64,000 bases of DNA from an uncultured bacterium (GTDB taxonomy: Bacteria; Cyanobacteriota; Vampirovibrionia; Gastranaerophilales; Gastranaerophilaceae). A program made the position numbers and the translations under genes. Below the pieces are notes generated by a model. The model was given only the letters and a program-made list of their open reading frames with translations. It had not been told where the DNA came from and did no database searches. Below, piece by piece: positions 20,241-27,966 of this stretch; positions within the stretch are counted from its first letter, which is position 1; the number at the start of each line of letters is the position of its first letter. Location of the stretch: assembly GCA_946622415.1 (NCBI GenBank), contig CAMOPX010000002.1, forward strand, positions 62,001-126,000, written 5' to 3'.

Positions 20241-20293
<53 letters not shown>

Positions 20294-20312
20294 GACTCAT
20301 TTTAGATTAACC

Positions 20313-20362
20313 TGTGTGATTGGTATAATAAGTGTTAATGGTATTTATAAAATACTTTATTT
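20313..20362 (+). repeat. 50-bp att-arm direct repeat, left copy
   Basis: 50 bp beginning TGTGTGATTGGTATAATAAG are identical to 26785-26834, the segment after the third att-like site. It is probably the element's own att arm (integrase-binding DNA). It also contains a TATAAT-like box. Confidence 0.7.
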
Positions 20363-20430: not shown

Positions 20431-21342
20431 TTATGCACCCTTTTCATCGGATTTTTTAGGAAACATCTCATAAGGTACATATTTTTCCATATTGTTAAAA
20501 TATCGCCTGAATATAAATACTGATTTTTTAACTTCTTCTTTTAATTTCGTTGGCATAACATGAGTATATGTATCTAAAGTAATACCAATACTGCTATGTC
20601 CTAACAATTGCGATACAGTTTTTGGCTCATATTGCCCGCTTTCAAATAAACGAGTTGCGTACGAATGTCGCAAATCGTGTATTCTAAAATGTTCAATACC
20701 AAGTTCTTTTAATCTTGAATTTAAGTGTTTCCTAAAAACAGTATCACAAATAAAATAACCGTCGTTTTTTGCGAATACAAGGTCTAAATCGTGCCTATAC
20801 TTTTCTTTGTATATGGCTTTATTTTCACATTGCTTTTGTTTTATTGTGTATAATAATGCAGATAATTCAGTAAATATTGGCAAAGTACGATTTGAATGTC
20901 GTGTTTTGGTAGATTTAATTATTTCTAATTTATATTTGCGTTTTATTGTTTTATCGGTATTGGGTACAGCTTGCACTTGTTGGTCAATTCTTATTTCCTT
21001 TTTGAATAAATCAACCTTACTCCATTGCAAACCAAGAGCTTCACCTAACCTTGCACCTGTACATAACAGGAATATAATTAACAAATCCATTGTAGAATTA
21101 CCTTTCATACAAGCATTAGCAAGTTTTATGGTATCTTCTTGTGTTAGAGCATTTGCAAACTTCTTTTCTCGTTTTGGTAAAGTAACTTTTTGGTTTGGAT
21201 TAAAAGTAATCAAATCGTTATTATAAGCACATTTGAACATTCTATTTGCGACTGTATAAATATTTTTAATCGTTTTTGGGCTTAATTTTTCACCTCTGAC
21301 ATTAGTTTTTTCACAACAGGCATTATAAAACCTTTGTAACAT
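20431..21342 (-). pseudogene. Tyrosine integrase, catalytic part (frameshifted gene)
   Basis: The C-terminal 303 aa of a phage-type tyrosine recombinase. The core-binding end and catalytic domain are complete: Arg in 'GARLGEALGLQW', 'HDLRHSYATRLF' (HxxR), and 'LLGHSSIGITLDTYTH' with the final His and the Tyr nucleophile. Sense codons in this frame extend upstream to about 21408 ('FLDHHIINDIGQYRLKN'), so the annotated ATG is internal. The missing N-terminus is the ORF at 21399-21698 in another frame. It sits beside the left att site, as integrases do. Catalytic residues are intact; the gene is broken. Confidence 0.8.
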
Positions 21343-21398
21343 TTGCCCTATTACATTTTTAAGCCGATATTGTCCAATGTCGTTTATGATATGGTGGT

Positions 21399-21698
21399 CT
21401 AAAAACTTCTATCATCGCTTTGTGTTGTAATTTTTACCTTGCCTACAACATAATTATCGTACCAATAATTAGCCCATTGCTCTATTGTCCAATTAGAATT
21501 AGCGTCTTTTGTATAAATTCCATTTTGTTCATTTCGCCAATTTGTAGCTTTTTCAATACATTCTTCTTTGGTTTTTGCCCAAAAATATTTATATTTTGTA
21601 TTTCCGCCTTTGTCAGTATAAGGTATGCGATAATCATATCCGTTACCATTTTTACTAAAACAACCTTCGCCATTTTTTCTTCGTTTAGCCATTTGCAT
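21399..21698 (-). pseudogene. Tyrosine integrase, N-terminal arm-binding part (frameshifted gene)
   Basis: The first ~95 aa of the same integrase. 'RKNGEGCFSKNGNGYDYRIPY' is the AP2-like arm-site-binding domain of Tn916-type integrases, and 'WTIEQWANYWYDNYVV' starts the core-binding domain. It runs off frame at an A5 tract (T5 on the coding strand, 21401-21405). One more T would restore '...DDRSFLDHHII...' with the catalytic part and correct spacing. It overlaps the serine recombinase start region by 14 bp. Confidence 0.75.
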
Positions 21699-22260
21699 TC
21701 TCCTCTCTTACGAATTTGTAGAATGCGTATTCGCTAATACCTAATGAACGAATTGCACCAATAGATGTTATTTCTCGATTTCGCCATTTTTTGTATATTT
21801 CACTAAAATTGTCAGGCTTTGGTACTTTTTTACGACCTTTGTATTTCCCTTTCATTTTAGCTATTGCAATTCCGTCTTTTTGGCGTTCTAAAAGGTTATC
21901 CCTTTCAAACTGATAAATTGCACCAAGAAAAGTGAGCATAGGTTTACCAATATGCGTTGAAGTATCAATATTTTCTTTGATACTGAATAAAGTTACACCT
22001 TTTTTCTCTAACAATGCAACAATACCAAGCAGGTCTTTTGTATTACGGGCAAGCCGTGAAAGGTCTTTTACATAAACAGTATCACCTTTTCTTACATAAT
22101 TAAGCATAGCCTTTAATTCAGTGCGGTCTTCTCTATTTTTACCGCTGACTTTTTCCTCAAAAGGCATATCAATATTGTATTTTTCTAATAATGCCTTTTG
22201 GCTGTCCGTATTTTGCTCGACTGTGCTAACTCTAATGTACGCAATTCTTTGTCCTGTCAT
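21685..22260 (-). CDS. Serine recombinase (resolvase/invertase type)
   Basis: A 191-aa small serine recombinase. The catalytic Ser is in 'AYIRVSTVEQNTDSQ' (residues 7-21). 'DLSRLARNTKDLL' and 'LGAIYQFERDNLLERQKDGI' are the catalytic arginine and dimer-helix segments. A short HTH_7-like DNA-binding tail ends it ('TSIGAIRSLGISEYAFYKFV'). It could resolve, invert or help mobilise the element. Its 3' end overlaps the integrase start by 14 bp, so the two recombinases form one translational unit, an uncommon arrangement. Confidence 0.9.
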   Translation of the reverse strand: MTGQRIAYIRVSTVEQNTDSQKALLEKYNIDMPFEEKVSGKNREDRTELKAMLNYVRKGDTVYVKDLSRLARNTKDLLGIVALLEKKGVTLFSIKENIDTSTHIGKPMLTFLGAIYQFERDNLLERQKDGIAIAKMKGKYKGRKKVPKPDNFSEIYKKWRNREITSIGAIRSLGISEYAFYKFVREENANG

Positions 22261-23034: not shown

Positions 23035-23463
23035 TTATTTTTTAAACTCGCGTTTTTTCTTTAAATATGCAGTATATAAAATTTCTCTTATGCTATAAGG
23101 CACTTCGGTATTATAATTATTTAGTGCTTTTATATTGTTTTCTGTCTGAACAATATTATTAAATTTTTTATAATCATTAAAAGATAAATCGTCTTCCACT
23201 GACTTTATTCTATTTTCTATATACAGTATTGCAAGTTCTCTAATTTTTTTCATATTCTCCGATTCTTCTTTTTTAAGATGAATTGAAATATATGATTTAT
23301 TTTTATTAATTTTATAAATTATACGAAGCACAATTGCAGTAATTAAAATACTAAAAATAAATATCCATAATAAATCTTCAAAAAAATTAGGACCACCATC
23401 TGAAAATAGCATACCAATGATTACAACTATAATAATATTCCAAATAATGGCTAAAATGTGCAT
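23035..23463 (-). CDS. Small membrane protein with cytosolic tail
   Basis: A 142-aa protein. Two hydrophobic helices (residues about 3-20 and 30-52) form a hairpin, followed by a 90-aa charged, helical C-terminal region. A strong ribosome site (AAAGGAG) precedes the ATG. No family was recognised. It lies downstream of and co-directional with the HhH-GPD-like gene, 57 bp apart, so they may share a transcript. A small membrane partner is common in defence systems, but that role is only a guess. Confidence 0.55.
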   Translation of the reverse strand: MHILAIIWNIIIVVIIGMLFSDGGPNFFEDLLWIFIFSILITAIVLRIIYKINKNKSYISIHLKKEESENMKKIRELAILYIENRIKSVEDDLSFNDYKKFNNIVQTENNIKALNNYNTEVPYSIREILYTAYLKKKREFKK

Positions 23464-23520: not shown

Positions 23521-24789
23521 TTATTTCATTTCATAATGAGCTATCAAAAAGTTTATAATTTGATAGCTCAAATTTATTCCCCATTCTGGAGGTGATTTTA
23601 ATCCTTCATAATCTCGACTTTCAAATTTATCAATAACATCACTTGCAGGAATTAATAAGACATGAACTGAATTAACTACATATACAACAAAAACGAGATA
23701 GCTATAATCTATGTCGTTAAAATTTTTCTTTAGTATCCAAGCATAATTATTTTTAACTTTTGGATTAAACCTGTAAAACATAAATCTTGCAAGCATATTT
23801 TCATTATTATTTGTAATTCTAAATAACGAATATTCTCTTCCTGTACTGATATTTATAAACTTATAGCCATTATTAAGCAATTTTTCGGTAGCAATATGCT
23901 CACTATAATTCCTTATAGAAATTTTATCCATTTTATAAAAATTATTCTCTTTTGTATCTGTTTTTTGGTATTCAGTTGCTTTTTTTACAATAAAAACCTT
24001 TTTTACATCTTGTCTATTATTAATAGGTTTAGTATTATTTAAGCAATACTCGCTAATAACACATTTCTCACACTTTGGTTTTTTAGTGCATACTTCCCCA
24101 TATCCTTTTGCACAATAATTCCACAATAAGTAATCAATTTTTATTTGACTTATTCCGATTTCATTTGATAATTGCTTGCATTTTCCTATAACCGCATAAT
24201 CAGATTTAGATGAAACTAAATTTAACCTATCAGGTGCAAGTATCCTTTTTAAATGCACATCAGGTTTAACAATATCTATACCCATATTTCGCAAATATTC
24301 ACAAACAAGTGCCACACCTGAATATCTCAATTTATAGGTACTATTACTATCGGCAAGTAATTTGACAATGTTTATAGGTGAATGACAGGTTATAAATTTT
24401 TCAATACCACTAAAATCTTTTTCAATTTTTTCAAATGTTTCAATATTTGCCTTTAATGACCGCATTTGATTTTTTGTCGTATATGGATTATTGCATTTGA
24501 TTTCGGTTATTTCAGTTATTAAATCTTCTGCTGATTTTTGTTTTAATTTTTCTTTATTATATTGGCAAAAAATATTATCAATATTTGCTAAATTGCTTTT
24601 AATTTTCTTCCAAGATACCAATGCACTTAATTGAGCATAAATAAAACCCCTTAAATGTTCTTTAAAATTGAATATTTTACCATTTTTTCTATCTTCAAAA
24701 GCCGACAAAATAGATGTGTCAATATCTTCTACCTTATCTTTTAGGTATCTATCAAGAATATTGAACATTTTTTTGTAATACTTTGCCAT
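23521..24789 (-). CDS. HhH-GPD DNA glycosylase-like protein with extra C-terminal domain
   Basis: A 422-aa protein. Residues about 1-255 look like an endonuclease III-type HhH-GPD domain: 'HLRGFIYAQLSALVSWKKI' (the usual ILSxQ region), 'IVKPDVHLKRIL' with the conserved catalytic-type Asp, and the cysteine set C-x5-C-x2-C-x5-C ('CTKKPKCEKCVISEYC') near residue 232, close to the Nth iron-sulphur loop. Residues about 265-422 are a separate alpha-beta domain I cannot name, faintly like PD-(D/E)XK nuclease folds. As island cargo beside an XRE regulator, a role against modified phage DNA is plausible but unproven. Confidence 0.6.
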   Translation of the reverse strand: MAKYYKKMFNILDRYLKDKVEDIDTSILSAFEDRKNGKIFNFKEHLRGFIYAQLSALVSWKKIKSNLANIDNIFCQYNKEKLKQKSAEDLITEITEIKCNNPYTTKNQMRSLKANIETFEKIEKDFSGIEKFITCHSPINIVKLLADSNSTYKLRYSGVALVCEYLRNMGIDIVKPDVHLKRILAPDRLNLVSSKSDYAVIGKCKQLSNEIGISQIKIDYLLWNYCAKGYGEVCTKKPKCEKCVISEYCLNNTKPINNRQDVKKVFIVKKATEYQKTDTKENNFYKMDKISIRNYSEHIATEKLLNNGYKFINISTGREYSLFRITNNNENMLARFMFYRFNPKVKNNYAWILKKNFNDIDYSYLVFVVYVVNSVHVLLIPASDVIDKFESRDYEGLKSPPEWGINLSYQIINFLIAHYEMK

Positions 24790-24890
24790 TTAACAACACT
24801 TCCACTAACAATTCTAAAACTCAATTTACAATAGATGTACTCTACTGTCAATGTGTGTAACTCCCATTTTAAATATATTAAGGTGTAATA

Positions 24891-25308: not shown

Positions 25309-25478
25309 ACACCGAGAAAAATCTTACAACCAAAAACTTGTGTCCGTAACCACGAAACCGTAAATCACAACGAGAGGGGGCTATATGGGGTGGTTAATTA
25401 ATTTTATAATTTGTTGCATTTATTTATTTTTTAGTTAAAAATGGTAAAAGAATATAAATTAAAGTTATGGGGGATAAA

Positions 25479-25994
25479 ATGGCAGATTTTAAATTCAAGG
25501 TATCGATAGGAAGTGCCAATATAGAACTTGAAGGTGATAGTGAATTAGTAAAAGATTTTTTCAATGAATTAAGGGTAAATGGTTTAGGTAAGTTATCTGA
25601 ATTTAATTTTATGAATGCAACCAAAGAAACCGTAATCGTTCCAAATTGTCAAAGTGCTATTAGTTCAGATAATATTGAAACAAATAATGCCAACGTAGAT
25701 GATAACTACCCAACACTAAATGATATTGTTTTAAGTAATAAAATTAAAACTGAATCTAATTGGATATTGATATATACATTATATGCTACAGATTTCGGGA
25801 AAAAAGCAGTTGCGAAAAAAGAAATTAGTAGCATGTATAAGACAACAAATAGGCAAACATCCGCAAGAAGTAAAAATTTTGCCACTAACATAAAAAAATT
25901 AGTTACAGATAAACTTATATCATCAATAAATGATAACGATTTCATTATTACTGAAAAAGGGAAAGAGGAAGCAAATAAATTATTAGGTATATAA
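25479..25994 (+). CDS. Island protein with winged-helix-like C-terminus
   Basis: About 171 aa. The N-terminal strand segment 'FKFKVSIGSANIELEGDSELVK' resembles small beta modules at the front of various uncharacterised prokaryotic proteins. An acidic, Asn-rich linker follows, then a region about 95-170 ('KKEISSMYKTTNRQTSARSKNF', 'FIITEKGKEEANKLL') with winged-helix character. I chose the second ATG because GGGGG lies 5 bases before it; the track uses 25467. The gene ends 4 bp before the HEPN-like gene, so they form a two-gene unit. The function is unknown. Confidence 0.55.
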   Translation: MADFKFKVSIGSANIELEGDSELVKDFFNELRVNGLGKLSEFNFMNATKETVIVPNCQSAISSDNIETNNANVDDNYPTLNDIVLSNKIKTESNWILIYTLYATDFGKKAVAKKEISSMYKTTNRQTSARSKNFATNIKKLVTDKLISSINDNDFIITEKGKEEANKLLGI

Positions 25995-25998
25995 ACAA

Positions 25999-26733
25999 GT
26001 GGAGAACCTTGAATATTTTTACAAAAGAATACCGAATCAAAACAATTTAACTGCTTCAAAGTTAATACCTTATTTTGTTTATTTTTTACAGGAAGAAAAA
26101 GAAGATATCAATGCTAAAGATATCCTAGAATGTTTTAATATTCTATCTTTGAGTCCATATTCTAACATACCTGCATATTTATCTAAAAATAGTTCTGGAA
26201 AAAACGCTGTTTTAATTAAGGGTAAATGTGGATATAAATTGCATAGAAATACTAAAGAGAAAATTGCTAATGATTTGCAAGATATTATTGAAGTTCCAAT
26301 TACAGAAAATTTAATACCATTATCAATTTTTGACAATACTCCATATTATATTATTGCAAATGCTAAGCAAATGTGTCAGTGCTATGATTCTGGTTTGTAT
26401 GATGCAACATTAGTATTAATGCGAAAACTGGTTGAAACATTAATAATAGAGTGTTTTGAAAGGTATGGAATTGATGATGAAATAAAAAATATAGATGGCG
26501 TTTTTTATTATTTAAGTGACCTTATTGCTAAATTTACAACATGTCAGAAATGGAATGTGAGTCGCAATTTAAAATCTAATATCGAAAAAGTTAAAAAGTA
26601 TGGTGATTTGAGTGCTCATAATAGACGCTTTTTGGCTAAAAAGAAAGATATTGATGACATGAAAATTGAATTAAGGCAAGTCATTCAAGAGATTATTCTA
26701 ACTATTGATTATACAAACTGGAGTAGAGTTTAA
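25999..26733 (+). CDS. HEPN/DUF4145-like protein
   Basis: A 244-aa protein starting at GTG right after its partner. The C-terminal half (about 115-240) is helical: 'CYDSGLYDATLVLMRKLVETL', then 'VKKYGDLSAHNRRFLAKK', the layout of DUF4145/HEPN-like domains in which a 'G(N/D)xxAH' segment follows a long helix. HEPN domains often act as RNases in toxin and abortive-infection systems. A clear RxxxxH site is not evident, so activity is uncertain. The N-terminal part (1-110) is unassigned. The gene ends 7 bp before an att-like site. Confidence 0.5.
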   Translation: MENLEYFYKRIPNQNNLTASKLIPYFVYFLQEEKEDINAKDILECFNILSLSPYSNIPAYLSKNSSGKNAVLIKGKCGYKLHRNTKEKIANDLQDIIEVPITENLIPLSIFDNTPYYIIANAKQMCQCYDSGLYDATLVLMRKLVETLIIECFERYGIDDEIKNIDGVFYYLSDLIAKFTTCQKWNVSRNLKSNIEKVKKYGDLSAHNRRFLAKKKDIDDMKIELRQVIQEIILTIDYTNWSRV

Positions 26734-26762: not shown

Positions 26763-26784
26763 GCATTTATTTTTTAACTTATTT

Positions 26785-26834
26785 TGTGTGATTGGTATAA
26801 TAAGTGTTAATGGTATTTATAAAATACTTTATTT
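26785..26834 (+). repeat. 50-bp att-arm direct repeat, right copy
   Basis: Identical over 50 bp to 20313-20362. Sequence after it diverges, although both flanks also contain a CTACAATAATT..TAGG-type stretch. Confidence 0.7.
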
Positions 26835-27077
26835 ATGATTACTAATAACTAAATAGCAATAATTCTTTTTCCCCGAACTTTGTTTTAAAAGTTTTATAGC
26901 AATTTATCCCCGATTTTATGTTTTTTAATTTCTCTATCCGCCATGCTTACATATATACCTACAATAATTGTAGGGAACAAGCGATATAATAACGAAATTA
27001 ACCGCCACTTGATTTTAATTTTTTAGCGTTACATAATATCTTTGTTGATAGAATTTCAGCAATTTACAATTTAATAT
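26835..27077. other. Non-coding remnant between third att site and tRNA-fMet
   Basis: About 240 bp with no supported ORF. It contains CCTACAATAATTGTAGGG, a short perfect palindrome resembling the hairpin at the left end of the island. It is probably the leftover end of a second, related element, or the part of the element that supplies the upstream region of the restored tRNA. Confidence 0.4.
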
Positions 27078-27154
<77 letters not shown>

Positions 27155-27208: not shown

Positions 27209-27288
27209 TATTGAAAGGCGACGTATGACAATTGAGCAAAACGAGCTGTATTTTTTCAGGACATTTAGTCGGAAAGAAATAAGCAAGC

Positions 27289-27373
27289 TGTCATGCTGAA
27301 CTTGTTTCAGAATCTTATAAAAGTCGCATGTTTACTACATTTTGATAAGACCCTGAAATAAATTCAGGGTGAC
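27289..27373. repeat. REP/MITE-like palindromic unit
   Basis: Two 30-bp imperfect inverted repeats (TGTCATGCTGAACTTGTTTC... and ...GAAATAAATTCAGGGTGACA) surround about 25 bp. The sequence is of the widespread 'GTCATGCTGAACTTGTTTCAG' type found between genes in many genomes. It probably spreads through a transposase acting in trans. Confidence 0.6.
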
Positions 27374-27966
27374 ATTATGGTCGGAAGTTAGTTGAGAATA
27401 GAAGTACCGAAAGTCCCAAAATCTTCCAATTTTTCTAATATGTTCCTAATTCTGTCCCAACGCCGGTTTGCCCAATTTTTGTGTTGTTTCACCTGAGATG
27501 AGAATTTATTGGGTGACGAAATTAGAAATAAGGTCGGAAATTTTATAAAAATGGTCGGAAGCAATCAATAATATATGAGTGGAAGGAATGGAAAGGTAAC
27601 CTTAATAGATTACCTAATCTACATCTGCTTTAAGGACGCAGTAATGCAAGCAAAGCCGACATGCCATTGATGTCATATGTTGACGATATGAACATGGAAC
27701 AAAAAAATTGTTTTACGAACATTCATTTATACGTCCAAGTATATCGTTGGAATTTGATAATTTTGGAATGTTTTATAATGAACGAAAAAAACTCTTAGTA
27801 TAAAACTTTTTGAATTGCTAAAATAAATTTTCAAATATATTTTTATTTAAATTTGCGATGAACAAAATTTACAGGCATATCTAGTATTAGTTAGTTTGTT
27901 TTGGCAAATCGGCAAAATAAATTTTTCACTAGTTTTATATCAATGTATTGCATTCTAGATATATTT
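27374..27966. other. Gene-poor stretch with hairpins and repeated GTCGGAA
   Basis: About 590 bp with no supported CDS. GTCGGAA occurs three times here and once just before the palindromic unit. Four short perfect hairpins lie in a row at 27595-27690 (GGTAA/TTACC, CTGC/GCAG, GACAT/ATGTC, CATAT/ATATG), so a structured RNA is possible. It may also be decayed mobile DNA. Confidence 0.35.

Follow-up and report, generated by a model that had tools for sequence, protein, structure and literature searches.

An open reading frame on a small integrative element in an uncultured member of the Gastranaerophilaceae probably encodes, as read from its sequence, a new form of base-removal defence, in which an HhH-GPD DNA glycosylase is fused to a degenerate PD-(D/E)XK domain. 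The gene lies in a window of 64,000 nucleotides (the whole stretch of DNA that was analysed; Table 1), and a defence role is probable because relatives of the glycosylase have anti-virus restriction genes around them or fused to them. With confidence only a little better than even, we read the protein as a modification-dependent (type IV-like) restriction factor that works by base excision and is encoded on an element integrated at a tRNA-Met gene. Base-excision defence is already known from other folds (Brig, R.PabI), and it is the HhH-GPD version that would be new, not the principle, since the anti-phage glycosylases in the literature read are uracil-glycosylase relatives or R.PabI; the literature searched yielded no defence enzyme of the HhH-GPD superfamily whose activity had been tested. 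If the reading is true, defence has also recruited from the large superfamily of repair glycosylases, and restriction-enzyme domains have been reused as glycosylase partners. The glycosylase family provides directly testable defence candidates.

The open reading frame that the earlier note had delimited is exact, and its placement of the gene in an island was borne out: the gene is carried by an integrative element of ~6.9 kb, at each end of which lies a 43-bp repeat of a tRNA-Met gene. The element contains a tyrosine integrase, a serine recombinase, a small membrane protein, the glycosylase, a divergent HTH regulator (the neighbour that the earlier note had called repressor-like) and two more genes.

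Table 1 Features of the glycosylase gene and its element, in window coordinates.
Feature	Coordinates	Strand	Remarks
Left attachment repeat, partial tRNA-Met	20251..20293	.	98% identical to 27074-27116
Tyrosine integrase, frameshift-split	20431..21698	-	Parts 20431-21342 and 21399-21698
Serine recombinase of element	21685..22260	-	Pfam Resolvase 1.6e-39
Small predicted membrane protein downstream of glycosylase	23035..23463	-	Membrane prediction by eye
HhH-GPD glycosylase / degenerate PD-(D/E)XK fusion, 422 aa, ATG start	23521..24789	-	ORF
C-domain, aa 276-422, degenerate PD-(D/E)XK, DUF4365/Mrr type	23521..23964	-	
N-domain, aa 1-255, HhH-GPD, OGG2-like core and EndoIII-type FeS motif	24025..24789	-	
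Predicted 4Fe-4S ligands C234, C240, C243, C249 (C-x5-C-x2-C-x5-C)	24043..24090	-	40/40 relatives
D177 codon, predicted catalytic Asp	24259..24261	-	40/40 relatives; aligns with Asp of EndoIII and OGG2
A160 codon, OGG2 lyase Lys position	24310..24312	-	Ala/Pro/Arg/Val in family, never Lys
Predicted glycosylase promoter TTGACA-17-TAAATT	24823..24851	-	Matches the consensus only; sequence unchanged in relatives
Operator-like palindrome ACAGTAGA-N5-TCTATTGT	24828..24848	-	Overlaps -35 hexamer, upstream of -10
Cro/C1-type HTH regulator, divergent, 105 aa	24891..25208	+	Pfam HTH_19 8.5e-14
Right attachment repeat, inside tRNA-Met gene region 27078-27154	27074..27116	.	

By homology beyond chance, the N-domain is a member of the HhH-GPD DNA glycosylase superfamily. 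Its profile (42 sequences, 31 used after filtering) matches that of endonuclease III (EndoIII) with 97.1% probability (hhalign, E 5e-11, 179 columns), whereas three column-shuffled controls reached 0.1%, and the alignment includes all four Cys as well as the catalytic Asp. The best-matching PADLOC-DB defence model is OGG (PDLC00910, E 8.5e-7), the best solved relatives are 8-oxoG glycosylases (PDB 9o00-9o03, E 2.8e-4), and relatives match Adenine_glyco (5.6e-6), Ogg-HhH (1.7e-5) and AGOG in Pfam; the PF00730 entry does not list the window glycosylase itself. The homology is to HhH-GPD, against the unrelated fold that the earlier note had named as fatal to its proposal. The catalytic-type Asp in the motif PDVHLKRI (aa 176-183) and the four-Cys cluster that it had picked out are both invariant in 40 relatives, as are W60, K175 and H179. 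Sub-threshold matches to Pfam EndIII_4Fe-2S occur in 20 family members, and the dN/dS of the domain (0.08-0.21) indicates purifying selection.

The description of this half as having an EndoIII layout thus stands for the superfamily and the FeS cluster, but the core is, judging by the alignments, closer to OGG2 than to EndoIII, and the lyase Lys is absent. The OGG2 motifs GLG-M-K-EASHFLRNVG...D-x-H align with YSG-V-A-LVCEYLRNMGI...D-x-H in the N-domain, which places A160 opposite the Lys; among 40 distinct sequences this position is Ala in 34, Pro in three, Arg in two and Val in one. Because it is never Lys, the domain is predicted to be a monofunctional glycosylase. Set against EndoIII (Nth) proper, the four-Cys FeS cluster is present and the Lys of the bifunctional lyase is not. 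Like OGG2, whose LRNVG...D-x-H core in PDB 9o00-9o03 aligns almost gap-free, the protein keeps the Asp of the catalytic Lys-Asp pair, but it has Ala for the Lys, carries the four-Cys FeS region past the stretch that matches OGG2 and is an accessory rather than a core gene. The C-terminal Lys that senses 8-oxoG in OGG2 (PMC3397491) is also missing, as the chain runs on into the FeS region and the C-domain and ends in ...YEMK only after the latter.

The earlier note had correctly seen an extra region, which it put at ~155 residues and could not assign. The last Cys is followed by 173 residues, ~147 of which constitute a domain that can be assigned, from profiles and a structural model, to the PD-(D/E)XK nuclease fold of DUF4365/Mrr type, with the catalytic residues lost. 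The profile-profile match has a probability of 99% (hhalign, E 2.3e-18). Structure prediction, which the earlier note had proposed for both domains, was useless for the whole protein as a single sequence (AlphaFold, pLDDT 35) but informative for the C-domain with 12 sequences (pLDDT 82, pTM 0.76), for which the model begins with one helix and then three strands, the alpha-beta-beta-beta core of a PD-(D/E)XK fold. Leading high-probability Foldseek matches in the PDB are mostly PD-(D/E)XK enzymes, modification-dependent restriction endonucleases included; MepB is the top match, and others are the Eco15I N-domain, I-Ssp6803I, NhoI, SwaI, archaeal Holliday resolvases and SPARDA (NbaSPARDA). Because the TM-scores are modest (0.38-0.54), it is profile and fold jointly that carry the assignment. 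Weak Pfam matches of the protein to Colicin-K immunity and N4 RNAP and a PDB match to an ectonucleotidase were taken as chance.

Homologues of the C-domain occur on McrB-like AAA proteins (L022, L101) and on HNH_2-type proteins (L023, L024, L096, L097), and at one locus (L048) as a gene of its own that immediately follows a glycosylase of 78-79% identity, an adjacency that independently supports the pairing of both domains. The window copy and that of L048 have lost D, Q and K from the D...QVK motif, so no cutting is expected. A viral homologue (L093) links these relatives to a family with an intact D...QVK; this family occurs also in phage SPbetaL2, on an Acinetobacter baumannii plasmid and on a plasmid of Microvirga, whose copy is annotated DUF4365. 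From the McrB-like and HNH company and the fold neighbours NhoI and Eco15I we infer, by analogy, that the C-domain may read DNA modification. On the two McrB-like proteins (L022:106-2559, minus strand; L101), the PD-(D/E)XK-fold domain is followed by a PDC-S02-like region, EVE-like by eye.

Within the order, the glycosylase domain was found in 21 of 286 genomes, and three further genomes match via the C-domain only. No match was obtained in the 20 other genomes listed for the same genus, a separate standard EndoIII is encoded in the same genome and relatives sit on mobile elements, which disposes of the core repair gene that the earlier note had named as its second counter-case. A divergent HTH gene lies within 400 bp at 19 of 22 loci of the order, with a serine recombinase nearby at 15 and a tyrosine integrase at 16. 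Split or fragmentary copies of the glycosylase gene occur (L038, L046), as is to be expected of accessory genes, which are gained and lost. Viral contigs and the phage and plasmid collections gave no glycosylase match, which counts, like the rarity of the fused form, against the reading as a restriction factor.

The form fused to this C-domain was seen in one genome only, in 50 contigs. Most glycosylase relatives are without a C-domain of the window type; in its stead many have a gene for DUF7225, which is the usual downstream partner and is fused to the glycosylase at one locus (L045); small TM proteins similar to that of the window also recur downstream. The closest relatives, 78-80% identical, have DUF7225 at L047 (same place as L027) and the stand-alone C-domain gene at L048, so the partners have been swapped. 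A NERD-like nuclease fills the HTH-X-DUF7225 slot at L186, and at L184 DUF7225 adjoins a GmrSD_N gene. DUF7225, for which a literature search found no papers, looks like an interchangeable recognition module. At L186 (808-1725), L184, L180 and L188 it has other partners (NERD-like nuclease, GmrSD_N) or stands alone beside the same HTH gene.

Relatives of the glycosylase extend to Clostridia and Bacteroidales, for the most part in metagenome assemblies. In Clostridia, a PD-(D/E)XK-like domain (FD...ECK) is fused N-terminally to the glycosylase (L064-066, L073) or encoded by the adjacent gene (L081, L091); its naming rests on the motif, as Pfam gave no match. Clostridial neighbours match PADLOC models of GmrSD-like, Type I R (HsdR), Mrr-type and candidate defence genes, each single match being weak because PADLOC includes broad models (AAA, HTH). 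Of ten neighbours of ordinary EndoIII genes, nine have no PADLOC match and one matches only a MotB-like ZorB, in a control that is small and drawn from the phylum of the window, not from Clostridia. We put at slightly less than even the chance that this widespread HhH-GPD family of gut Gastranaerophilales, Clostridia and Bacteroidales constitutes a modular class of base-excision restriction, with a controller of its own and with exchangeable partners for DNA recognition or as nucleases (PD-(D/E)XK, degenerate or intact; DUF7225). Other N-terminal regions occur in the relatives L076, L080, L079 and L081, among which a DUF6508 match (8.1e-11) was obtained.

The PADLOC OGG model is, we presume, the ancillary OGG of type IV CBASS; no CBASS genes were recognised in the island, and the window protein differs from that model in its additional FeS ligands, its C-domain and its Ala at the Lys position. 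A functional parallel would be Brig1, Brig2 and Brig3 (PMC11078745, PMC13160076), single glycosylases found among defence genes, since the window protein, too, would make abasic sites in modified phage DNA. Unlike the Brigs, which belong to the uracil-DNA glycosylase superfamily, it is of the HhH-GPD type, has an FeS motif and carries a PD-(D/E)XK-fold domain. It would also resemble the R.PabI family in restricting through base excision instead of phosphodiester cleavage; R.PabI, however, is of a separate superfamily and excises a base of its site when that base lacks the proper methylation (PMC10273834), whereas no methyltransferase was recognised among the genes of the window element. By fold and homology, the C-domain is akin to DUF4365/Mrr-type PD-(D/E)XK domains, to the BisI family members NhoI and Eco15I, which have a D...QxK site and sense 5mC/5hmC (PMC11347163), and to the DUF4365 domain of SPARDA. 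In contrast to NhoI and Eco15I it is without the catalytic D, Q and K, and sequence searches of the PDB gave no match to solved structures, those two included.

As a restriction factor, the protein would work as follows. The HhH-GPD domain would flip out a base foreign to the host, presumably a modified phage base, and D177 would activate a water to hydrolyse its glycosidic bond. With the lyase Lys missing, an abasic site would be left without a nick, at which replication of the invading DNA would stall or host AP endonucleases would cut. The C-terminal domain, its cutting residues lost, would serve as a DNA-binding or modification-sensing module, and related domains on HNH and McrB-like proteins may act as modules of the same kind. 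The divergent HTH protein would repress the glycosylase gene via an operator in its promoter. The palindrome arms have one mismatch in the window and are perfect over 8 bp at L028 and L062; the palindrome is weak evidence by itself, because it was found by looking, and it is the position in the promoter and the recurrence that carry weight.

The defence role is argued from gene context and fusions. The foremost rival is a DNA-repair glycosylase of the ordinary kind, for bases that are oxidised or alkylated, carried as mobile cargo by chance and helping host or element to survive DNA damage; the closest profiles (OGG2, AGOG, Adenine_glyco, EndoIII) are of repair enzymes. We regard it as unlikely: the gene is sporadic, sits on integrative elements beside a conserved divergent HTH gene and adds to an EndoIII that the genome already has, and fusions to restriction-type nucleases and restriction gene neighbours were not seen around ordinary EndoIII in the checked sample. 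That HTH gene and its operator-like promoter palindrome, conserved beside the glycosylase, would also suit a self-acting, toxin-like abortive-infection enzyme that damages host DNA or the nucleotide pool once infection lifts the repressor. Divergent HTH genes also accompany toxins and other mobile genes, which counts against the reading as a restriction factor, and some relatives have N-terminal regions reminiscent of domains of nucleotide metabolism (a weak DUF4406 match in L079; in L076 and L080 MazG-like by eye). The unit has no fixed immunity gene, however, as the small TM protein and DUF7225 vary, and a toxin-like enzyme is less probable again than a repair glycosylase.

Loss of the Lys and of the C-domain catalytic residues, together with the nuclease partners in Clostridia, could also mean that the HhH domain is a reader without catalytic activity, flipping modified bases while a partner nuclease cuts, so that the window protein would only bind DNA. 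We give this slightly less weight still, because the catalytic Asp and the FeS ligands are invariant, as would suit an active enzyme, and monofunctional HhH glycosylases such as MutY and AlkA are without the lyase Lys anyway. The alpha-GPT pyrophosphorylase family, described as related to HhH glycosylases, raises the further idea of a base-modifying enzyme in hypermodified thymine synthesis; no Pfam match to such a family was obtained among the scanned members and base-hypermodification genes were not noticed nearby, which makes it very improbable.

Several other properties of the element were recorded. Relatives of its split tyrosine integrase are intact (421-431 aa), and the frameshift may mean that the element is immobile or that the assembly is wrong there. 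Beyond the HTH gene lies a two-gene cargo (25467-25994 and 25999-26733) of no confident family, also present at L062, with possible wHTH-like and HEPN-like features by eye, which is a candidate second defence module. A 63-nt direct repeat (92%; 20300-20362 and 26772-26834) lies just inside both ends and perhaps constitutes recombinase arm sites. A search of the genus for an empty site with the flanks returned mainly tRNA and repeat matches, and 27288-27374, a stretch of ~85 nt that follows the tRNA, matches many sites in the genus genomes and represents a dispersed intergenic repeat family.
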